Shown piece by piece: positions 12,140 through 35,132 of a stretch of DNA of 39,868 bases. The DNA is from a bacterium (GTDB lineage Bacteria; Hydrogenedentota; Hydrogenedentia; Hydrogenedentiales; SLHB01). Each line of letters opens with the position of its first letter. Positions within the stretch are counted from its first letter, which is position 1. Made by a program: the position numbers and the translations under genes. The stretch is taken from positions 1-39,868 of the forward strand of contig JAAEQP010000482.1 of NCBI GenBank assembly GCA_024231375.1. Direction: 5' to 3'. The notes under the pieces were generated by a model, which saw nothing but the letters and a program-made list of their open reading frames with translations, was not told the origin of the DNA and ran no database searches.

Positions 12140-15100
12140 ATGGCTGCTCATACACTAACGTCAGCACTTGAGACGGGCACGGCCAAAGTTGAGTACGTGT
12201 TCCACGTGGGCGGTATGCCGTGGGCGGTGCATACGTCGGGCCTGACGTCTATCTCCTCCGCGTATCGGCGGCAGATGTTCGGCGACGAGTGGTACGGTGT
12301 CGCGAAGTATTACGCTAATGATGTATCCCTATACCCACACCTTCAGACGCCGGGCGCGCAGACTGTCACCATGAAGGACGGGGTGGGCACGCTTGACGGT
12401 GGCGCGTGGACTGCTGAAATTCTCGACCTCCCTGCGGGTGACTCCACATTTCCCCACAACCAACGCACGAACATCGTTGGGCTTGAAGGAGTGTCGGCGA
12501 TGGCCAACCCGCGACAAGACCCAACCATCGGGCACGCGGATTTGTGGACGGCGTTCGGCAAGGCGGCAACCACGCTGTCGATAGATAACGACTTCGCGGA
12601 CATTATCCACGACGGTATCACCGCGAAGGGCGGCGACCCATATCTATTGTGGATTGGTGGCGAGTGCGTGGCGGCGACAGCCGAGGCTGCGGGCAGCGGG
12701 TACGCGCTCGACTTGACCGTGGCGGGCGGGGAGCGTGGGCTGTTCCGCTCGAAGAAGCAAAGCCACCACCCGCGCAGCGTGAATACATCCGCGCCTATCA
12801 AGGTCTGTTCGGCACCGCTCAACGGCATCGCCGCCCGCCCCTACTATCTCTGGGCGATACTCGTAGACGACGACGGCACACCCATCGACGACCCGCACCT
12901 GTTGAGACACGGCAAGGTGGGGCAACAGGTATCGTATCAACCCGGTCGCAGCATGTGGAACGTGCAGTGTTTGCCGTGGTGGAAGTGGCTCGACACCGAC
13001 ATCCATATCGACGCATTCGAAGGGCACCTTGCGAAGTTCACGTTCAGCCGCCCGAAGGACGGCGGCGACACGCCACCCCATATGCAACTCCGCGAGTGGG
13101 ACTCGGGGGCATGGGGTGACACGCTCGACATCTGGCTATGTGGCGACGGCTCTGCTGATGCGGTCGTGACGTACGATACCATTGAAGAACTGTTCAACGC
13201 TATTGGTGATGCTTGCACGGCGGCGAGTACAGCAGACGGCACTAACGATTATGTCTATGACTGCTCGCCCGTTGGGCCGTGGTCCGAAGATGGACCATCC
13301 AGCCCCGTTGACCAACGCCCACAAATCAGGGGGCCGCTAGTTGGCATCTGTTCGTTTGGATACTCTGGCCCGGTGTTGGACGGCATCGAAGAGTGGGTAG
13401 CAGAACATCGTCACGCGGGCAACCCCAAGAACCACAGATGGTGGGGCTTCGATTTCGAGGAGGCAGACGACAGCGCGAACGGCGGCTGGATACCTACCCG
13501 CGATGCGTCGTCGATGACCACGTTCGGCAACTCGCCGCGCTATGTTTATCAATGGTTCGAGGCCGAAGCGGAGACGGACTACGACGACGACGAGAGCGAA
13601 CTTGGCAAACTGTGGCCAGTCCCGCAGGTGGGCGGGGCTGCTCGCATGTGGCTCGACAACGAAGCCGACTGTACATCATTCGCGGCGGGCGACGAGTTGA
13701 CCATTGGCACCGAGGATTTTTGGTTACAACTGGGGTGGGGATTGTTCCGCACGTCGCTGTCGAAGGGATACGTGAAGGACAAGGGCACTGGCCCACCGGC
13801 AAACAACTACGTCGAACTAGGCGACGACGTGCCCGACTTCCCCAACTGGGGCACGGGTGATCACCCCGTATTGATGGGGCAGAAAGCCGACGCGGGCGAC
13901 GATAACGACGACAAGATATTCGGGCGCTCGTGCTATTTGTACTACCGCCCCAACCTACACGCTACCGACCCGTGGCCGGTCAAGCAAAACTTCGACGTTA
14001 TCACCGACAAGCCGAGCACCATCTTCAAGGCGTTGCTAGGTGACACGTCAGAGATAACGATACCCGAAGCCACGCAGGTTGACCATATACCAGACTCGCT
14101 TTCGCTTGGACTGTCGCACCCGACCATCGACTGGGATTCGCTCGACGAGTACATCGAGTCAAGTTCAAGCGGGTTCGATGGCATGTCGTTCAGGATGCGG
14201 TACAACGGGCGCATAAACATCTGGCAACTGTTCTTGAACCTGCTTCGCTTCTGGGGGTTGACCCCAACGTACGAGTGGGTGCAAGCGCAGAAGATGTACC
14301 GCGTGCGGTTCCGCGAAGTCGGCACGATCAACAGCACGCTTGCGGTGTTGGGCGGGCGCAAGTTGGACAGCACGCGCATCAGCAGGGGCACGAAGATAAC
14401 AACCAAGCACTCGTCTGATTGGCTAGTCAACAGCGCCGACGTGTCGATGTGGTGGGACTATCAAGCCGGGGAGTTTGCACACAAGTATCAGTTTGGCGAT
14501 AGCAGTGGGTTCGCACCGACCGGCGGCAAGAGGAACACTATCAAAGTCGAAGACCGCATCACGCGTATTGACCCATCGGTCGGTGACAACGAAGCAGCGT
14601 TGATAACTCACTTCGCCGTGATACTCGACAGCACAATGACTCCCCACCCGACGCAGACGGTCAGGGCTACCGTCGACAAGGTGCTTTCCTTTGGTGTGGG
14701 TGTGGAGTCGCTTGTCACGGTGGACGGCGCGAAGAACCCATACGGCGGTGTGGTCGGCATGACCGACTGGGCGGCGTTAATAACATCGATGACGTGCGAC
14801 CCGAGCGCGGGCACCACGGGCTACACGTACCGCCTCGCCGCCACAAACGCGAAGGGGTGGGCACCGACATGCCGCATCACGGCGAGCACGGTTGACGACG
14901 CCGACAAGGTGAGCGTAACGGGTATCAGCCTCGACGGTGACGGGCAGGAATGGTGTGGCACGGGCGAGACGGATGGATGGTATGATCATTGGTTCTTTAC
15001 CAACGCCGAATTCAATAGTTCGATGGATGCGCCCACCTACTCGACCGGCTCTGCTATCACTTGCCCCGTCGTGCTGTGGACTATCGAAGACGCAACCCCC

Positions 15101-15364
15101 GTCTATATCACGGGCGTCACTTGCACCGCTGTCAGCCTGAGCACGTGGGCAACTATCAACGGCGCGGGCGGCGACTTCTTTGAATTGACCGGCAGCGGGT
15201 GGACGGGCTCTTGGGACGTCGCCAAAGATTGGTACATGACGTTCGCCGACTTCGACCACGCATCGCTACCGGACTTCGCGAAGGAGTACATTTTCATCGC
15301 CGACACGGACGGCACGATAACCGACTCGGCTGCGGCGGTCTTCGCCGGGGAGGAGTGGAAATAA
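12140..15364 (+). CDS. Large tail tip/baseplate hub protein
   Basis: The product has 1074 residues, the largest gene in the window. It is beta-rich with many Trp, Asp and Gly residues and no coiled coil. The N-terminal third has a domain with YVFHVGGMPWAVHTSG; the middle has WRYNGRINIWQLFLNLLRFWG-like hydrophobic content near residue 700; the C-terminal third has repeated Thr/Ser-rich strands. Position after the distal tail protein suggests the hub that carries host-contact domains. No peptidase or lysozyme motif was found by eye. Confidence 0.6.
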   Translation: MAAHTLTSALETGTAKVEYVFHVGGMPWAVHTSGLTSISSAYRRQMFGDEWYGVAKYYANDVSLYPHLQTPGAQTVTMKDGVGTLDGGAWTAEILDLPAGDSTFPHNQRTNIVGLEGVSAMANPRQDPTIGHADLWTAFGKAATTLSIDNDFADIIHDGITAKGGDPYLLWIGGECVAATAEAAGSGYALDLTVAGGERGLFRSKKQSHHPRSVNTSAPIKVCSAPLNGIAARPYYLWAILVDDDGTPIDDPHLLRHGKVGQQVSYQPGRSMWNVQCLPWWKWLDTDIHIDAFEGHLAKFTFSRPKDGGDTPPHMQLREWDSGAWGDTLDIWLCGDGSADAVVTYDTIEELFNAIGDACTAASTADGTNDYVYDCSPVGPWSEDGPSSPVDQRPQIRGPLVGICSFGYSGPVLDGIEEWVAEHRHAGNPKNHRWWGFDFEEADDSANGGWIPTRDASSMTTFGNSPRYVYQWFEAEAETDYDDDESELGKLWPVPQVGGAARMWLDNEADCTSFAAGDELTIGTEDFWLQLGWGLFRTSLSKGYVKDKGTGPPANNYVELGDDVPDFPNWGTGDHPVLMGQKADAGDDNDDKIFGRSCYLYYRPNLHATDPWPVKQNFDVITDKPSTIFKALLGDTSEITIPEATQVDHIPDSLSLGLSHPTIDWDSLDEYIESSSSGFDGMSFRMRYNGRINIWQLFLNLLRFWGLTPTYEWVQAQKMYRVRFREVGTINSTLAVLGGRKLDSTRISRGTKITTKHSSDWLVNSADVSMWWDYQAGEFAHKYQFGDSSGFAPTGGKRNTIKVEDRITRIDPSVGDNEAALITHFAVILDSTMTPHPTQTVRATVDKVLSFGVGVESLVTVDGAKNPYGGVVGMTDWAALITSMTCDPSAGTTGYTYRLAATNAKGWAPTCRITASTVDDADKVSVTGISLDGDGQEWCGTGETDGWYDHWFFTNAEFNSSMDAPTYSTGSAITCPVVLWTIEDATPVYITGVTCTAVSLSTWATINGAGGDFFELTGSGWTGSWDVAKDWYMTFADFDHASLPDFAKEYIFIADTDGTITDSAAAVFAGEEWK

Positions 15365-17756: not shown

Positions 17757-17910
17757 ACCGGGGTGGTATTGGTGGCGTCTACGGACCAACGACCCAGAGG
17801 TTGTCTTTGTTGATCACTGGTTCGGCACAACGGTAATGTGGCAGGGCGACGAGAAGTGGGAACTTCCGTTTGGCGAGACGTGGTCCATCCCCATCGAGCC
17901 CCCCGCATGA
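17731..17910 (+). CDS. Small Trp-rich protein, DUF551-like
   Basis: The product has 59 residues and overlaps the previous gene by 26 bases. Of two adjacent ATGs, 17731 has the better spacing from GGAGGGG. The sequence EPGWYWWRLRTND and the many Trp residues resemble small phage proteins of the DUF551 kind. No catalytic motif is present. It ends at the ATGA that starts the next gene, so translational coupling is likely. Confidence 0.55.
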   Translation: MWTSEAPSEPGWYWWRLRTNDPEVVFVDHWFGTTVMWQGDEKWELPFGETWSIPIEPPA

Positions 17911-18767
17911 GCGCGCGATGGACAGCCGACGAGGAGGCGACCCTGCTGCGCATGAGCGAGCAGGGCTACACGCAGACCGCGATTGGCAAGGCGCTAGGAC
18001 GCGACCACTCCACCATCTCTAGCAAGGTGCGGCGCATGATGAACGCGGGACCGGACCCCCGCCCACCCGTCGAGCTTGAAATCTCGGACACTAGCACCGA
18101 GATTGTCGGCATCATCGGCGACACCCATCTGCCGTTCGAGCTCCACGGCTACCTCGATTTCGTGGGCGATACGTTCGTGCGCCACGGGGTGACGCGAGTA
18201 GTCCACATCGGGGACTTCGTAGACAACCACGCCATCTCCTACCACGAGCACGACCCCGATGGAATGTCACCCGGCAACGAATACGAGTTGGCACTTGAGA
18301 AGGCGAAGGAATGGTATCAGGCTTTCCCGTGTGTCACTTGGCTACAAGGCAACCACGACCGCTTACCCTACCGCAAGCTGATGAGCGCGGGGCTACCTCG
18401 CAGGATGATGCGCGACCGCCTACTAGAGACGCCCCGTTCTTGGGAGGCTGTCGATAGCGTGGTGATTGATGACGTCATGTACACGCACGGGGTTGGCGCG
18501 GGCGGGGGCAAGCACGGTGCTCGACGGATGGCGGCGGAGCGCGGGCAGTCCTGCGTGATCGGACACTTCCATCAGTCGGCGGGCATCGGCATCGTCGCCA
18601 CGCGAGACAACGCCCAACGCTTCGGGCTGACCGTGGGCTGCGGCATCGACCGCCACACGTACGCCTTCGAGTATTGTAAGGAGCAAGGCTCGATGGCTCT
18701 TGGCTGCGGCATCGTGCGACACGGGCGGGTCGCTCACTACGAGCCGATGCCACCAAGGAGGGGATGA
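17907..18767 (+). CDS. HTH domain fused to calcineurin-like metallophosphoesterase
   Basis: The product has 286 residues. Residues 1-45 form a Myb/GcrA-like HTH (WTADEEATLLRMSEQGYTQT, then AIGKALGRDHSTISSKVRRM). Residues 65-260 carry the full metal-binding set of calcineurin-like phosphoesterases: GDTH (71-74), GDFVD (102-106), GNHD (148-151), H194 in THG, and GHFH (219-222). Start ATG 17907 overlaps the previous stop. It should hydrolyse phosphoester bonds, probably in a nucleic acid or nucleotide, with the HTH giving DNA targeting. It overlaps the RNA ligase gene by 4 bases. Confidence 0.8.
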   Translation: MSARWTADEEATLLRMSEQGYTQTAIGKALGRDHSTISSKVRRMMNAGPDPRPPVELEISDTSTEIVGIIGDTHLPFELHGYLDFVGDTFVRHGVTRVVHIGDFVDNHAISYHEHDPDGMSPGNEYELALEKAKEWYQAFPCVTWLQGNHDRLPYRKLMSAGLPRRMMRDRLLETPRSWEAVDSVVIDDVMYTHGVGAGGGKHGARRMAAERGQSCVIGHFHQSAGIGIVATRDNAQRFGLTVGCGIDRHTYAFEYCKEQGSMALGCGIVRHGRVAHYEPMPPRRG

Positions 18768-19384
18768 TGAGAAAGTATCACAAGATTCACGCACCGTACT
18801 ACCGTGACGACAAGGGGCGTCTGATGCCGGGGAAGTGGGCGCGCCCTGAGTTCGAGATGCTAGCCGACTGCATGTGGACTGCCACCGAGAAGATAGACGG
18901 CACCAACATCCGCATCGGGTGGGACGGTGCGGCGGTGGAGTTCGGGGGCAGGACAGACCGCGCGCAGATTCCCGCGCACCTCGTCAACCGCTTGCGCGAG
19001 TTGTTCCCCGTCGAGCGGTTCGAAGACTTGCCGCCGATGGTGGTGTTCGGCGAGGGGTACGGGCACAAGATTCAGGCGGCGGGCGACTCGTACAACGACG
19101 AGGAGTGCGACTTCATTTGCTTCGACGTGTGGTGCGGTGATGTGTGGCTTGAGCCGGACAACGTAAGCAGCGTCGCCGCGCGGCTTGGCTTGCGCGTGGT
19201 GCCCACCGTCGCCGCCTTGTCGCTATGGGGGGCGTTCGACTTCGTTGGCAAGTTCCCCGCCTCGCAGATTGGCGACATCGAATCCGAGGGGCTAGTGCTG
19301 CGCGCCCCGATGGGTATGCTCGACCGCCAAGGACACCGCATCATCACCAAGATAAAGGCACGCGACATCCGACGCATGTCTTGA
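18764..19384 (+). CDS. RNA ligase family protein
   Basis: The product has 206 residues and overlaps the phosphoesterase by ATGA. It carries the nucleotidyltransferase motif EKIDGTN, with Lys43 as the expected adenylated lysine. FGEGYGHK, DFICFDVW, SEGLVLR and ITKIKARD fit the later motifs, ending in the Lys of motif V. The family joins RNA (sometimes DNA) nicks using ATP. There is no C-terminal extra domain, so it is a minimal core enzyme. Pairing with a phosphoesterase suggests end-processing and sealing of nucleic acid. Confidence 0.8.
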   Translation: MMRKYHKIHAPYYRDDKGRLMPGKWARPEFEMLADCMWTATEKIDGTNIRIGWDGAAVEFGGRTDRAQIPAHLVNRLRELFPVERFEDLPPMVVFGEGYGHKIQAAGDSYNDEECDFICFDVWCGDVWLEPDNVSSVAARLGLRVVPTVAALSLWGAFDFVGKFPASQIGDIESEGLVLRAPMGMLDRQGHRIITKIKARDIRRMS

Positions 19385-21312: not shown

Positions 21313-21526
21313 AACCACAGACGAGTACGGGCGTCAGTGGGCGGTAGACGGCAGCGAGCACGACCCGCGAGCACGACGCGCGATGGACCGACGCAACGCC
21401 AACAGGCTCAACACGCATCACCGCGTCATCGCACGGGACTACGAGGGCGCCATGTCCGACGCACTGCGCGAGATACTCGTGAGGCTGCTAGGCGAGGTGC
21501 ATCGATTGATGGGGGTGGAGCGATGA
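21305..21526 (+). CDS. Small basic helical protein
   Basis: The product has 73 residues, rich in Arg (DPRARRAMDRRNANRLNTHHR), with a C-terminal helix (SDALREILVRLLGEVHRLMG). It overlaps both neighbours. No family is recognised. Its basic surface and place just before a ParB-like gene make a DNA-associated role possible, but this is a guess. Confidence 0.5.
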   Translation: MTRTTDEYGRQWAVDGSEHDPRARRAMDRRNANRLNTHHRVIARDYEGAMSDALREILVRLLGEVHRLMGVER

Positions 21527-22221
21527 CCGACAAAGATGGAATCCTTCGGCGCGCGTACCAACTTGCCGACGAGCTTGCGCAAGTCGAAGACATTGACACA
21601 AGGGTCTTTCTGCTGAACGGCATCCGTGAACAACTGCACGAGGTGTCACCGTTCAAAGACGAGCCGGTCGACTTCGTTCGGTGGTCGCCCATTGACGAGG
21701 TGGTCGCCAACGACTACAACCCCAACGCCGTCGCCCCGCCTGAGATGCAACTACTGGAGCTGTCCATCGATGCAGACGGGTACACGCAGCCAATCGTCAC
21801 GTGCTTCGACGACGAGCGCGATGTGCTGGAAGTCGTCGACGGGTTCCACCGCAACCGCGTTGCCAGAGAATCAGAGGTGGTTGGCGCGCGTATCCAGGGG
21901 CACCTGCCCACGGTGCAAATCCGCGACGAACAGCAGGGGAGGCCCGACAGGATTGCGTCGACCATTCGCCACAATCGAGCGCGCGGCAAGCACCAGGTTG
22001 AGCAGATGTCGAGCATCGTGCTAGAATTGAAACGGCGCAATTGGTCGGACAAGAAGATAGGCAAGGAACTAGGCATGGACCCCGACGAGGTGTTGCGACT
22101 TGCGCAGATTACCGGGCTTGCGGAGGCGTTCGCGGATCACGAGTTTTCAGCAGCGTGGGAGGTGGACCAGACGGCAGACGACGATACCGTACTGGAGATT
22201 GTGGAGGAGATAGATGCGTGA
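21523..22221 (+). CDS. ParB-like/IbrB-like protein
   Basis: The product has 232 residues, starting at ATGA. Residues about 50-150 form a ParB N-terminal-like domain: VVANDYNPN, LELSIDADGYTQPIV, then DGFHR (106-110) in place of the GERRxR box, and STIRHNRARG. Residues about 160-215 hold an HTH (KKIGKELGMDPDEVLRLAQ). In known IbrAB pairs such a protein accompanies a DUF3440 PAPS-reductase-like enzyme, exactly as here with gene 23042. It may bind DNA, cut it, or hydrolyse CTP; the altered box leaves this open. Confidence 0.78.
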   Translation: MTDKDGILRRAYQLADELAQVEDIDTRVFLLNGIREQLHEVSPFKDEPVDFVRWSPIDEVVANDYNPNAVAPPEMQLLELSIDADGYTQPIVTCFDDERDVLEVVDGFHRNRVARESEVVGARIQGHLPTVQIRDEQQGRPDRIASTIRHNRARGKHQVEQMSSIVLELKRRNWSDKKIGKELGMDPDEVLRLAQITGLAEAFADHEFSAAWEVDQTADDDTVLEIVEEIDA

Positions 22222-22642
22222 CAGGGACCTGATATGCGAGGGGGCACGTGTTGACCATCGGCGATACTGGTGCGCGTACACCGACCTCGAAGAGTTTGCG
22301 GCGGGCATGTGGCGACCGATTCACGGGGACAGGGCGCAGACTAAACTGGTGGCGCTGTCGGTTTCCTTGCTGCGATCGCCCGCGCGGTTCGACGACGCCG
22401 TTCGATTGGTGTTGTCGTCGTGGCCCACGTCTTGCCGTGCTGAGTTCACCTCGCCAGGGAACCACCTTGCGTGGCTTGGGTGCGCGGCGTGTTGTCTTGT
22501 TGATGGCGTGCCAGAAGACCTAACGCGGCGGGCGTGGTGGAAGTTGACCGAACACGAGCGAGCCACGGCCAACCTTGTCGCCAGCACAGCGGTGGCAAGG
22601 TGGGCGCGAGATAACGGGGCCGTCCAGTTGGGGCTGTGGTAA
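22214..22642 (+). CDS. WPTSC-motif protein, first copy
   Basis: The product has 142 residues and overlaps the ParB-like gene by 8 bases. It shares with its neighbour the signatures YWCAYTDLEEFAAGMW (18-33) and WPTSC (70-74), and a similar C-terminal helix (LTEHERATANLVAS). It has no known catalytic motif; the conserved Trp and Cys suggest a metal or sulfur site, or a structural core. Its place between ParB-like and PP-loop genes points to a common pathway. I believe similar proteins accompany IbrAB elsewhere, from memory only. Confidence 0.65.
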   Translation: MRDRDLICEGARVDHRRYWCAYTDLEEFAAGMWRPIHGDRAQTKLVALSVSLLRSPARFDDAVRLVLSSWPTSCRAEFTSPGNHLAWLGCAACCLVDGVPEDLTRRAWWKLTEHERATANLVASTAVARWARDNGAVQLGLW

Positions 22643-22644
22643 CC

Positions 22645-23079
22645 ATGGCAGAACAAATCGAAATGTTCGGGCCGACCGCTCAACGATTCTGGTGTCGCTA
22701 CGACCAACTCGAAGAGTACCACTCTGGTATGTGGGTTCACGTTTCCGACAAGGCCGAGCGCGCCAACTGGCTTGCGCGGGCGGTTGGTTTTCTGAGTGAC
22801 AGCTCGGTCTTTCGTGATGGAATGCGCAAGGTGTTTGCTGCGTGGCCGACGTCTTGTCGGTACAACTTTTCCAACCCGTCGCTAAACAAGCCGGTGTGGT
22901 TGGCACACGCCGGGGCCAGCCTGACAAGGGGAATACCAGAGGAGTTCATGCGGCTTGGATATTGGGAACTATCTATCGACAGCAGGGCCAGGGCTGACAA
23001 GGACGCCATCGAAATATTTGGAGAATGGGAGAGGGACCACCATGCTAAAGCGATACATCGACACCGACGTACTGACTGA
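22645..23079 (+). CDS. WPTSC-motif protein, second copy
   Basis: The product has 144 residues and is a diverged tandem paralog of gene 22214: FWCRYDQLEEYHSGMW (15-30), WPTSC (67-71), and a C-terminal part with RLGYWELSIDSRARADKD. Conservation is patchy, so the duplication is old. GTG 22636 is an alternative start. Its 3' end overlaps the PP-loop gene by 38 bases, so the two are tightly linked. The function is unknown. Confidence 0.65.
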   Translation: MAEQIEMFGPTAQRFWCRYDQLEEYHSGMWVHVSDKAERANWLARAVGFLSDSSVFRDGMRKVFAAWPTSCRYNFSNPSLNKPVWLAHAGASLTRGIPEEFMRLGYWELSIDSRARADKDAIEIFGEWERDHHAKAIHRHRRTD

Positions 23080-24289
23080 GGCGCGCAAGAGGATTGCGCA
23101 GACGTTCGACGACTTCGAACGAATCTACCTGTCGTTCTCGGCGGGCAAGGATTCGACGGTAATGATGCACCTTGTCTGCGACGAGGCGCGCAAGCGCGGG
23201 CAGACTATCGGCGTCATGCTGATTGACCTCGAAGCACAATTCGACATCACGATGCGACACGCCGAGCATATGTTCGAAATGTATGCCGACGTCATCGAGC
23301 CGCACTGGGTTTCGCTGCCGATACACCTGCGGAACGCGGTTAGTGTGTACGAGCCGTTCTGGCTGTGTTGGGATCCCGACGCTCAGGAGGCGTGGGTGCG
23401 CCAGCCACCAGACATCGCAATCACAGACGGCGAGGCTTACCCGTTCTTCCATAGCGGCATGGAGTTCGAAGAGTTCGTGCCGCTTTTTGGCGAATGGTTT
23501 GGGCAAGGCAAGTCGACGGCGTGCTTCGTGGGTATCAGGACGGACGAGAGCCTGAACAGATTCCGCACAATCGCCATGAGCAAGAAAGAGACGTACCGCG
23601 ACTTCCGCCACACCACGCGTGTCTCGGAGAATGTCTACAATATTTACCCGCTGTACGATTGGCGCGTCGAGGATGTCTGGGGGTACCACGGACACAATCC
23701 CGACAAGCCCCATAACCGCCTATACGACCTGATGCACCAGGCGGGGTTGACACTATCCCAGATGCGCATCTGCCAGCCGTACGGCGACGACCAGCGGCGG
23801 AACCTGTGGTTGTTTCATATCATCGAGGCGGCGACGTGGGCCAGGGTGGTCGCGCGTGTCAACGGTGCCAACGGTGGTGCGCTCTATGTTCAGGAGTGGG
23901 GCAATATCAACGGCTATCGAAAGATTACCAAGCCCAAGGGGCACACGTGGAAATCGTTTGCCAAGTTGCTCGTGGCATCGATGCCGCCCAAGTCGCGCGA
24001 ACACTACCGGAACAAAATCACGCTGTTCGAAAAGTGGTGGACCGAGCGCGGATACGACGACGGAATTCCCGATGCGGCCGACCACCACATGGAGGCGGCA
24101 CGCAAGGCCCCGTCGTGGCGAAGGGTGTGCAAGTCGCTCTTGCGCAACGACTATTGGTGCAAGGGGCTTGGGTTCTCGCAGCAAAAAAGCTCGGGCTATG
24201 AGGCGTACATGAACCTGATGCGACGGCGAAAAACAGAGTGGAACGTAAACCAGACAACACTCGGATTCATCGAAGGAGGGGAGCAATGA
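23042..24289 (+). CDS. PAPS reductase-like PP-loop protein (IbrA/DUF3440-like)
   Basis: The product has 415 residues. ATG 23042 lies inside the previous gene. The PP-loop is LSFSAGKDSTVMMHL (SAGKDST at 33-39), the ATP-pyrophosphatase signature of PAPS reductases and DndC-type enzymes. GIRTDESLNRFRT follows further on, typical of this fold, and a long C-terminal DUF3440-like domain ends with GFSQQKSSGYEAY. It should adenylate a substrate for sulfur transfer or other modification. Cysteines C286-type clusters were not clearly resolved. With the ParB-like gene it forms an IbrAB-like pair. Confidence 0.8.
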   Translation: MLKRYIDTDVLTEARKRIAQTFDDFERIYLSFSAGKDSTVMMHLVCDEARKRGQTIGVMLIDLEAQFDITMRHAEHMFEMYADVIEPHWVSLPIHLRNAVSVYEPFWLCWDPDAQEAWVRQPPDIAITDGEAYPFFHSGMEFEEFVPLFGEWFGQGKSTACFVGIRTDESLNRFRTIAMSKKETYRDFRHTTRVSENVYNIYPLYDWRVEDVWGYHGHNPDKPHNRLYDLMHQAGLTLSQMRICQPYGDDQRRNLWLFHIIEAATWARVVARVNGANGGALYVQEWGNINGYRKITKPKGHTWKSFAKLLVASMPPKSREHYRNKITLFEKWWTERGYDDGIPDAADHHMEAARKAPSWRRVCKSLLRNDYWCKGLGFSQQKSSGYEAYMNLMRRRKTEWNVNQTTLGFIEGGEQ

Positions 24290-24648
24290 TTACCTATCTG
24301 GCGTGTCCGTACACGGACGAAAACCCGGCTGTTTCAAAGCGCAGATTCCGCGAGGTGAACAAGGCGGCGGCGACTATGATGGCGCGGGGCGAGCACGTGT
24401 TGAGCCCAATCTCGCACACGCACCCGATTGCCATGGCGGGCGAACTACCGAAGGACTGGCAGTTCTGGCAAGGTTACGACACTGCCCTGCTCAAGTGCTG
24501 CGGGCTGCTGAAGGTGCTCTGCTTGGACGGGTGGCAGGAGTCGGTTGGCGTCCAGGCCGAAATCGAGATTGCCAAGGGGCTAGGGTTGCCGATATATTAC
24601 ATCGACTCGAACGCAAGACCGCTTGACATCGGGCGCAAGTTCCTGTAA
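24286..24648 (+). CDS. DUF1937/nucleoside deoxyribosyltransferase-like protein
   Basis: The product has 120 residues, starting at ATGA. The opening YLACPYTDEN, then HVLSPISHTHPIA and ESVGVQAEIEIA (S86, G88, E92 as the likely catalytic end) match DUF1937, related to nucleoside 2-deoxyribosyltransferases. It probably acts on a deoxynucleoside or deoxynucleotide, exchanging or removing the base. Coupled to a PP-loop enzyme it may help make or recycle a modified nucleotide (inference). Confidence 0.75.
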   Translation: MITYLACPYTDENPAVSKRRFREVNKAAATMMARGEHVLSPISHTHPIAMAGELPKDWQFWQGYDTALLKCCGLLKVLCLDGWQESVGVQAEIEIAKGLGLPIYYIDSNARPLDIGRKFL

Positions 24649-33524: not shown

Positions 33525-35132
33525 ATGATACTGATTCGCCAGCCTGTTGATAACACCGATGTATCCAACGATATGGACGCGACGCTTGTCGCTAATATCG
33601 TGGACATGATTGACGGGGTTGGGGGGCACGACCGCGCAGTGGACAAGATGGCGGAAAGGTACGCCTACCGCATCGAGCGCAAGGTAACCGAGGACGGGTT
33701 GGAGTACGCGACGTACGTCCGCGCCGACCGACAGCACGCTATCAAGAACGGCTTCTTTGAGGTGGTGCTTGTGGACTTCGGGCGCGCGGTGAACGACCAA
33801 CGCTCCACGCTCTACAGCGAAGAATCGCAGGAGTGGGTGTACGACAACGACACTGCCGAGCAGGTGTTCAACGAACTGCGCGAGGAGGGCGGGGCAGACC
33901 TTGCGCTGATACGCGTGGACCACTTGGCGGACAGCATCGGGTGCGGTTGCCAACGCGTGGTGCATCGAGATAGTGCGCTATCGTGGCAGTCGTTCGCGCC
34001 GACCTCGCTAGCGGTAGGGTTCGCGGCGAGCATCGAGTCAGACGGCAACATGCGCGAGGTGAACGCGTGCGACATCGAAGAGGCGTCGGTGGTCGTGCTG
34101 ACCTTGGGCGTGGTGGACGCAGCCACGAACAAGAACCGCTATGCGGCGTACTTCGGGCGCAGCGAGTTGTATCCGAACGGGCGTCACGTCGTGTTCGTGG
34201 GCGACAGCCCATCGGGCTACCCCGAGGTAGGCGGCGGCGGTGACGAGTGGACCACGGCGGGCGAGTTCGTGACGGATGCCCCGCTTGACGACATCGCTAA
34301 CCCGCTCACGTATTGGAGCAACACCACGGGCACGGATGGACCTGAGTACCCCGTGGTCATCTTCTACGGTGACAGCAGACGGCACAACGTGGAGTTGCTC
34401 CCATTGACCGGCGAGGACTTGTACCTCGACAGCCTCGAAGCGGACGTGGCGTCATCGCTGATACTGAAGAACAGCCTGATCAATTCACGCGGCATCGTGG
34501 CGCTGAAGGCACCGAGCGGCGGGGCACTACCGAACCCGTGGGACCAGGGCATGGTGCATCTGCGCAAAGACCAGGACATCGAGGTCAAGAGCGTGCCGGG
34601 TGTCAACAGCAAGATAGCGTTTGAGAACTTCAAAGAGTGGCTCAAGGCGCGCGCCGAGTCGATGGGCGTGCCCGGTCACATGGTGGTCGCCGACAGCGAG
34701 AGCGGCAACCCCGAGTCAGGCAAGGCGATTGCGTTGAGGAACGCGCCACTCAAGAAGACGCGTGAGGAGCGGTGGCGGGCGAACCGTCATTCGTTCCGGC
34801 GATGGTGGGACGTGAGCAAAAACGTGTACAACTGCGGCGAAGGTTCGGCGGTCATCCCCGAGGATTCAACGCTCAAGTACAGCCCCGGTACGCAGTTCTT
34901 CGAGGGCGAGGACGATCGGCTTGCGGACATCACGCGGTTGGAGGCTGAGAAGACAGCGGGACTGAACGACCCAATCGGCGTGGCTGCTGACTATTGGGGC
35001 GTGACGCGCGAAGAGGCGGCGGTGATGCTCGAAGAGATGGCGAAGGAGATGGGCGAGCACCCCGACCTAGCGCCCGCAGCCCCCGAGCAACCGCAGGGCG
35101 TGCTAGCGCGGCGGCAGCTGGGGCGGCAGTAG
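33525..35132 (+). CDS. Probable portal protein
   Basis: The product has 535 residues and directly follows the terminase. Portal-like features are size, a mostly helical centre, and a C-terminal helical and acidic region (TRLEAEKTAGLNDPIGVAADYWG, then VTREEAAVMLEEMAKEMG). KAIALRNAPLKKTREERWRANRH resembles a portal crown stretch. It should form the dodecameric DNA channel. Sequence similarity to a named portal family was not confirmed; position is the main support. Confidence 0.78.
   Translation: MILIRQPVDNTDVSNDMDATLVANIVDMIDGVGGHDRAVDKMAERYAYRIERKVTEDGLEYATYVRADRQHAIKNGFFEVVLVDFGRAVNDQRSTLYSEESQEWVYDNDTAEQVFNELREEGGADLALIRVDHLADSIGCGCQRVVHRDSALSWQSFAPTSLAVGFAASIESDGNMREVNACDIEEASVVVLTLGVVDAATNKNRYAAYFGRSELYPNGRHVVFVGDSPSGYPEVGGGGDEWTTAGEFVTDAPLDDIANPLTYWSNTTGTDGPEYPVVIFYGDSRRHNVELLPLTGEDLYLDSLEADVASSLILKNSLINSRGIVALKAPSGGALPNPWDQGMVHLRKDQDIEVKSVPGVNSKIAFENFKEWLKARAESMGVPGHMVVADSESGNPESGKAIALRNAPLKKTREERWRANRHSFRRWWDVSKNVYNCGEGSAVIPEDSTLKYSPGTQFFEGEDDRLADITRLEAEKTAGLNDPIGVAADYWGVTREEAAVMLEEMAKEMGEHPDLAPAAPEQPQGVLARRQLGRQ

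Follow-up and report, generated by a model that had tools for sequence, protein, structure and literature searches.

W as the usual third part of phage IbrA-IbrB cassettes and a possible role of the three-gene unit in nucleic acid or nucleotide modification

Which genes of a compact phage block belong together, and what might they do for the phage? The question was raised by a 39,868-nucleotide contig from a Hydrogenedentota bacterium (JAAEQP010000482.1, assembly GCA_024231375.1; this whole stretch is called the window below), in which a family scan of the open reading frames (ORFs) showed a tailed phage, with a terminase large subunit (phrog_2), a tape measure protein and tail genes. At positions 21523-24648 five plus-strand genes follow one another in the same direction, with an overlap or a gap of 2 bases between neighbours. 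The original prediction, made from the sequence alone, described this block as an IbrB-IbrA-like cassette, that is, a ParB-like protein (here ParB) and a PP-loop enzyme resembling PAPS reductase (here IbrA), joined by two paralogs with a WPTSC motif (W1 and W2 of a family here called W) and a nucleoside-transferase-like DUF1937 protein. The compactness of the block was borne out: ParB and W1 overlap by 8 bases, W2 and IbrA by 38, and IbrA and DUF1937 by 4, and W1 and W2 are separated by 2. Analysis of other phage loci showed that W is the usual third part of the phage IbrA-IbrB cassette, with IbrA, ParB and W being passed on and rearranged as one unit.

Viral loci were collected around two anchors, taking the best 80 of 543 confirmed loci for W and the best 80 of 491 for IbrA. 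The anchor is present in its own set by construction, and because both sets consist of best-scoring matches they lie close to the queries, with some contigs in both. IbrA was found in 78 and ParB in 76 of the 80 W-anchored loci, and in all five incomplete ones the cassette runs into the end of the contig; the WPTSC gene is thus part of the IbrAB cassette, as had been proposed. In the IbrA-anchored set the expected pairing with ParB was seen in 79 of 80 loci and W was present in 65. The one locus without ParB (L147) starts within W at the start of its contig.

Co-occurrence outside the window was one of the tests by which the original prediction was to be judged, and the genes were found together in other phages, compared with 1 of 80 control loci fetched with an ERF recombinase (best 80 of 592), in which all three parts were present. 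This control rate is if anything too high, because the ERF query was made from cassette phages and the positive locus (L237) is the contig of L017, a source of the query. Two more control loci gave weak PP-loop matches (57 and 30 bits). Removing loci with the same IbrA segment from L001-L164 and the window left 148 non-redundant loci, and in all 148 the parts found were on one strand (one locus shows a single part), despite varied gene order. The layouts were ParB-W-IbrA in 63, W-IbrA-ParB in 30, IbrA-ParB in 15, IbrA-ParB-W-small gene in 13, a fused ParB+W followed by IbrA in 11 and W-small gene-IbrA-ParB in 7, with 9 remaining; ParB-W-W-IbrA was found in the window only. The three parts spanned a median of 2349 bases and at most 3393 (141 complete loci, not de-duplicated). 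The linkage of IbrA, ParB and W is therefore strong.

Pairwise distances of the parts were also correlated. The correlation of IbrA with ParB was 0.84 over 126 loci. When only the 105 loci that lack the small extra gene were used it was 0.66, with 0.46 for IbrA and W and 0.38 for ParB and W, and for each pair none of 999 permutations gave a value as high. For DnaB-like, SF2 helicase and ERF genes nearby, the correlation with IbrA or ParB was 0.10-0.32 (subsets of 21, 16 and 13 loci), and within those same three subsets IbrA and ParB correlated with each other at 0.88-0.94. The co-evolution signal of W itself is moderate.

The other two features of the block proved to be local. W1 and W2 both carry the WPTSC motif and are, as predicted, paralogs (36% identical over 122 residues, E value 1e-28). 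The idea that the duplication belongs to the system did not hold: two W genes were found in 1 of the 148 loci, the window itself, and a doubled W was rejected as a core part. The W tree groups W1 and W2 with the W of L007, the only one in that locus (support 0.94), and W1 is nearer to the L007 protein (distance 1.63) than to W2 (3.01). W2 also keeps fewer of the 17 conserved columns of the family than W1 (Table 1; two columns are lost by both), so it looks like a diverged copy. The DUF1937 product scored 66.1 bits in Pfam, above the cut-off of 23, and by phmmer such a gene followed IbrA in only 2 of the 148 loci, the window and L147; it too was rejected as a core part. Pfam found DUF1937 in none of 48 longer contigs, which shows little alone because the 14 control genomes likewise gave no match.

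The W family appears to be undescribed, since the literature searched yielded no account of W or of a three-part IbrA-ParB-W unit. At the limits used, W1 and W2 matched no family of Pfam, PHROGs, NCBIfam or PADLOC, and four further W proteins had no Pfam match and weak PHROGs matches in two only (best 0.019). A profile of six W proteins retrieved 3431 proteins (90% clusters) at E ≤ 0.01 among 4192 candidates, and none of 120 family members listed from this search had a Pfam domain. The AlphaFold model of W2 is all-helical, with a predicted local distance difference test (pLDDT) score of 90. No confident match was obtained between W and PDB folds; the hits listed from BFVD had E > 1, apart from one 116-residue protein (2.6e-5). 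In the phage collection INPHARED, tblastn with W1 matched five records, and W2 matched the same five and Microcystis phage Mwe-JY13. Isolated carriers are Mwe-JY13, Pseudomonas phage Amjad_SA and Pseudoalteromonas phage XCL1123, in which W adjoins ParB, and Mycobacterium phage Gaia, in which one small gene lies between them. A scan of 84,980 species genomes with a W pattern found one locus, in a Planctomycetota metagenome-assembled genome, holding IbrA, a small gene, ParB, W and a small IbrA C-terminal gene; because the pattern is strict, this points to rarity in bacterial chromosomes but does not prove it. Scanning viral contigs with the single sequences W1 and W2 gave no result.

What chemistry could such a unit perform? 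The predicted PP-loop enzyme was confirmed. The 415-residue IbrA of the window contains SAGKDST and exceeds the Pfam cut-offs for DUF3440 (119.5 bits against 25) and PAPS_reduct (51.1 bits against 22.5), and its AlphaFold model (pLDDT 83) matches the PP-loop folds of FAD synthase, CysH and APS/PAPS reductase. In an alignment of 147 IbrA proteins the PP-loop residues S33, G35, K36, D37 and S38 (SxGKDS) were conserved at 0.95-0.99, and D62, E64, G164-R166, E169-R173, Y202-P203, D206 and D211 at 0.9-1.0. No cysteine column reached 0.9. The best was C244 (119 of 147); C373 was present in 107 of 147, with 25 gaps from cut sequence ends, which makes 107 of 122 when only sequences extending to that position are counted. 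C373 was invariant (7/7) in a seven-sequence alignment (context NDYWCKGLGF) and, from its conservation, may have a role in many IbrA members, including that of the window. Class V aminotransferases (PF00266), for example cysteine desulfurase, were found in none of 48 cassette contigs, some of them fragments, and in 14 of 14 controls.

These results bear on two explanations that involve sulfur. The first, that IbrA is a true PAPS reductase and an auxiliary metabolic gene of sulfate assimilation, as it is sometimes annotated, was rejected as scarcely credible. The PF01507 match (Table 1) and the modelled fold, which resembles CysH and APS reductase, would agree with it, but IbrA has no invariant cysteine, the NCBIfam models for CysH/PAPS reductase were far below cut-off (TIGR02057, 25.9 bits against 254.2), and no part in sulfate reduction is known for its partners ParB and W. 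The catalytic cysteine of PAPS reductase is in a C-terminal ECGxH motif, and ECG is absent from the window protein, whose C373 has different surroundings. IbrA differs from CysH, CysD and FAD synthase in its C-terminal DUF3440 region as well as in the lack of an invariant cysteine.

The second explanation, a reduced DNA phosphorothioation (Dnd) system with IbrA as DndC and ParB as DndB, is very unlikely. Both Dnd and the cassette combine a ParB-superfamily protein and a PP-loop enzyme in one operon, and DndC was the top PADLOC match of IbrA (1.4e-8). IbrA was the only part with PADLOC matches, which were weak (DndC, BrxP and a type II methyltransferase model), and it scored 23.1 bits against the NCBIfam DndC model (TIGR03183), whose cut-off is 290.4. 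To our knowledge, W has no Dnd counterpart. DndB belongs to the ParB superfamily, and DndC requires iron-sulfur and sulfur-transfer cysteines (PMC10853773), while the alignment of 147 IbrA proteins, made without DndC, has no cysteine column at 90% and no cysteine desulfurase-type gene accompanies the cassette in the 48 contigs, though host IscS could serve. Sulfur transfer and PAPS reduction are disfavoured by these two absences, and with them the sulfur-related role offered in the original prediction. With the PP-loop kept, an adenylation that consumes ATP fits these findings better, and our best guess is that IbrA adenylates DNA, a nucleotide or some other target in this way.

The ParB of the window was below the Pfam cut-off for ParB_N (PF02195; 0.0096, 16.4 bits against 26.3), but its PHROGs match was strong (Table 1). 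Its DGFHR motif, read at first as an altered ParB box, is present, yet in 143 aligned ParB proteins D, G, H and R were conserved at 0.99 and F at 0.95; it is the norm of the phage ParB family and thus no oddity of the window protein. The family also keeps YNPNxVAPPEM and TIRHNRARGxH. We infer that the motifs are nucleotide-binding boxes and that the C-terminal part of ParB binds DNA. ParB-superfamily proteins are described beside DNA-modifying enzymes in several systems: DndB with DndC (PMC10853773), the ParB-like ATPase DpdB, which assists DNA-modifying DpdA in the 7-deazaguanine system Dpd (PMC12839542), and ParBc beside CmoX in phage cytosine modification (PMC12783734). The cassette differs from Dpd in having a PP-loop enzyme in place of the TGT enzyme of Dpd (no search for TGT was made). 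In the phage CmoX/CmoA/CmoY systems a ParBc gene often accompanies the DNA-modifying enzymes, which include an ATP-dependent ligase (PMC12783734); the Cmo ligase is asparagine-synthetase-like, a difference from IbrA, and a gene that reads as cytosine-methylase-like is near the cassette in 11 loci. By analogy with these systems, DNA or nucleotide modification is plausible.

We tentatively propose, at somewhat less than an even chance, that the cassette encodes a phage nucleic-acid- or nucleotide-modifying complex with IbrA, ParB and W as its three core parts. ParB would bind nucleotide and DNA and carry the enzyme to its substrate, and W would be a small helical adaptor seated on ParB and linking it to IbrA. 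IbrA would use ATP much as FAD synthase, CysD or TilS do, adenylating an acceptor that could be a base, a nucleotide or something else. The adenylation would tag phage DNA or nucleotides, most likely for escape from host defence or for steering early replication and recombination. In the window phage, the duplicated W could possibly form a two-W assembly.

Several observations weigh against this proposal. Over all 126 loci the correlation of W with IbrA was only 0.29 and with ParB only 0.28, and the comparison with neighbouring genes covered IbrA and ParB without W. W was missing from 15 of the 80 IbrA-anchored loci, and among the 216 of 50,697 INPHARED records with IbrA relatives it was found in six (single-sequence tblastn), so W is not universal. 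Palindromes were no less avoided in cassette loci than in controls (0.889 against 0.865 for 4-mers, p = 0.12; 0.705 against 0.706 for 6-mers, p = 0.37; 141 and 77 loci), and a general restriction shield is thus without support; this test is confounded by host identity. Finally, the IbrAB pair of E. coli phages is annotated as a gene-expression co-activator.

The last point leads to the possibility of a phage transcription regulator, in which ParB binds DNA and IbrA and W modulate it. We consider this unlikely. The name IbrAB denotes co-activators of prophage gene expression, IbrA and IbrB are annotated in E. coli and Streptococcus phages, a ParB-like protein is present in the cassette, and in E. 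coli K-12 ybdNM, a PAPS-reductase/DUF3440 and ParB-like pair, is derepressed in a citR mutant (PMC9068703). Regulation would leave unexplained the nearly invariant PP-loop ATP site and the cassettes with a cupin gene or beside an SNF2-type helicase. The E. coli phage pair (ybdN-ybdM in K-12; original work by Sandt and Hill 2000, cited in PMC4541368) resembles the cassette in placing a DUF3440 PP-loop protein beside a ParB-like protein, and the window IbrA shares 45-46% identity with its counterpart in E. coli phage PhiR5_2. It differs in its third part: PhiR5_2 shows neither W nor family X (a second small family, see below) within the 7 kb read, while W1 and W2 sit between ParB and IbrA in the window and W is fused to ParB in some other phages.

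Two further explanations were weighed against a DNA- or nucleotide-modifying complex. A counter-defence or signalling enzyme that acts on free nucleotides rather than DNA, hydrolysing or adenylating a host immune messenger, is improbable but would account for a PP-loop enzyme with a ParB-like partner and for the nucleoside-transferase-like DUF1937 gene after IbrA in two phages, and ParB-superfamily proteins are discussed as NTPases in conflicts (PMC10853773). DUF1937 is rare, however, and PADLOC matched IbrA only, and weakly. A toxin-antitoxin or superinfection-exclusion pair has very little probability. A Listeria ParB/DUF3440 pair is included in a survey as a putative toxin-antitoxin locus, with DUF3440 assigned by association (PMC7020466), but IbrA is a conserved enzyme of 415 residues with its ATP site intact, and scans of Pfam, PHROGs, NCBIfam and PADLOC revealed no toxin-like domain.

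Table 1. Coordinates of the window block and of features from other cassette loci
Feature	Locus	Position	Strand	Evidence or remark
ParB/sulfiredoxin-superfamily-like (IbrB-like)	window	21523-22221	+	phrog_2159 2.8e-70; DGFHR, TIRHNRARGKH motifs
W1, WPTSC family	window	22214-22642	+	less diverged copy; 15/17 family-conserved columns kept
W2, WPTSC paralog	window	22645-23079 (or from GTG 22636)	+	more diverged; 11/17 conserved columns kept
IbrA-like PP-loop enzyme, C-terminal DUF3440	window	23042-24289	+	PF11922 1.8e-34; PF01507 2.1e-13; phrog_2302 1.3e-84
DUF1937, nucleoside-2-deoxyribosyltransferase-like	window	24286-24648	+	rare add-on; PF09152 5.5e-18; PDB 1t1j 2.6e-12
Ectoine-synthase-like cupin in cassette	L002	2757-3656		PF06339 1.3e-32 to 6.4e-41 (range for the cupin rows)
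Ectoine-synthase-like cupin in cassette	L003	3072-3464		
Ectoine-synthase-like cupin in cassette	L076	7891-8271		
Stand-alone IbrA C-terminal domain gene (example)	L016	6320-6592		next to W
GNAT-like gene (example)	L045	6311-6748		
Family X	L005, L110, L121, L124, L131, L133, L142, L143, L146, L148, L155, L161, L162			

The third part of the cassette varies. There were 17 loci with IbrA and without W, or 16 once L146 is removed, as L146 and L005 encode identical family X proteins. In 13 of the 17 (12 of the 16) a protein of about 130 residues, family X, is encoded directly upstream of IbrA, and family X was found in no locus with W. Three members scanned had no Pfam match above cut-off; a match of one member to DsrD (0.0089, below cut-off) was taken as chance. 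Gene 6 of CV-1-33 was at first aligned with W and then removed, as it belongs to family X. Profile-profile comparison showed no similarity of W to family X or to the small IbrA C-terminal gene. Both W and X are missing beside IbrA-IbrB in the six phages of Streptococcus, Lactobacillus, Fusobacterium and Flavobacterium examined. Five of these have a gene of some 390-410 codons directly next to the pair, and in the Fusobacterium phage a single small gene separates it from the pair; Pfam identified the gene as an SNF2-type helicase in all five tested (L166-L170, with L171 outside the test).

Other genes were found as additions. A stand-alone gene for the C-terminal domain of IbrA was present in 27 loci (not de-duplicated), and a cluster of ectoine-synthase-like cupins in 6 (two tested by Pfam). 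Mycobacterium phage Gaia encodes the cupin and ParB as one fused protein, and the ParB alignment suggests the same fusion in L040. A gene labelled GNAT-like, although just below the Pfam cut-off in the one member scanned, was present in 9 loci and lay between W and IbrA in 7. The commonest neighbour clusters within 4 kb (147 loci) were DnaB-like (22), SF2 helicase (16), ERF (13), NinG-like (13) and cytosine-methylase-like (11). As labelled here, from a Pfam match of one member each for SF2, ERF and NinG and from sequence reading for DnaB and the methylase, the recurrent neighbours are putative replication and recombination genes. We read this arrangement as a constant core with exchangeable partners.

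Elsewhere in the window, a helix-turn-helix and metallophosphatase protein is followed by an RNA ligase (PF09414, 6.4e-18) at 17838-19384, ending about 2.1 kb upstream of the cassette. Large ORFs at 33525-35132 and 12140-15364 had no PHROGs match at 0.001, and the former had no tblastn match in 50,697 phage records. The sole INPHARED match of the terminase was a Rhodobacteraceae phage, with 27% identity across 48% of its length. Of the 29 ORFs scanned, a subset of those in the window, none matched an integrase or repressor family.

A broader form of the proposal is less likely than not: IbrAB-type cassettes could be a modular machine, widespread among phages, that modifies DNA or nucleotides by an adenylation chemistry so far undescribed. 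The PP-loop enzyme IbrA and the ParB-like protein would be its constant core, and W, family X and an SNF2-type helicase would take turns as third subunit. The ectoine-synthase-like cupin, the GNAT-like protein, the stand-alone IbrA C-terminal domain and DUF1937 would be optional, and W would be an adaptor with a new, all-helical fold.

IbrAB and "PAPS reductase" genes of phages are annotated as genes of sulfur metabolism or prophage activation. In the phage loci examined here, such genes form one inherited unit with W, a small family absent from the profile libraries searched, and an invariant cysteine, as sulfur chemistry would lead one to expect, is missing from the enzyme. Because the unit consists of three defined genes, is fused naturally in some loci and occurs in isolated phages, its chemistry can be put to a direct test.

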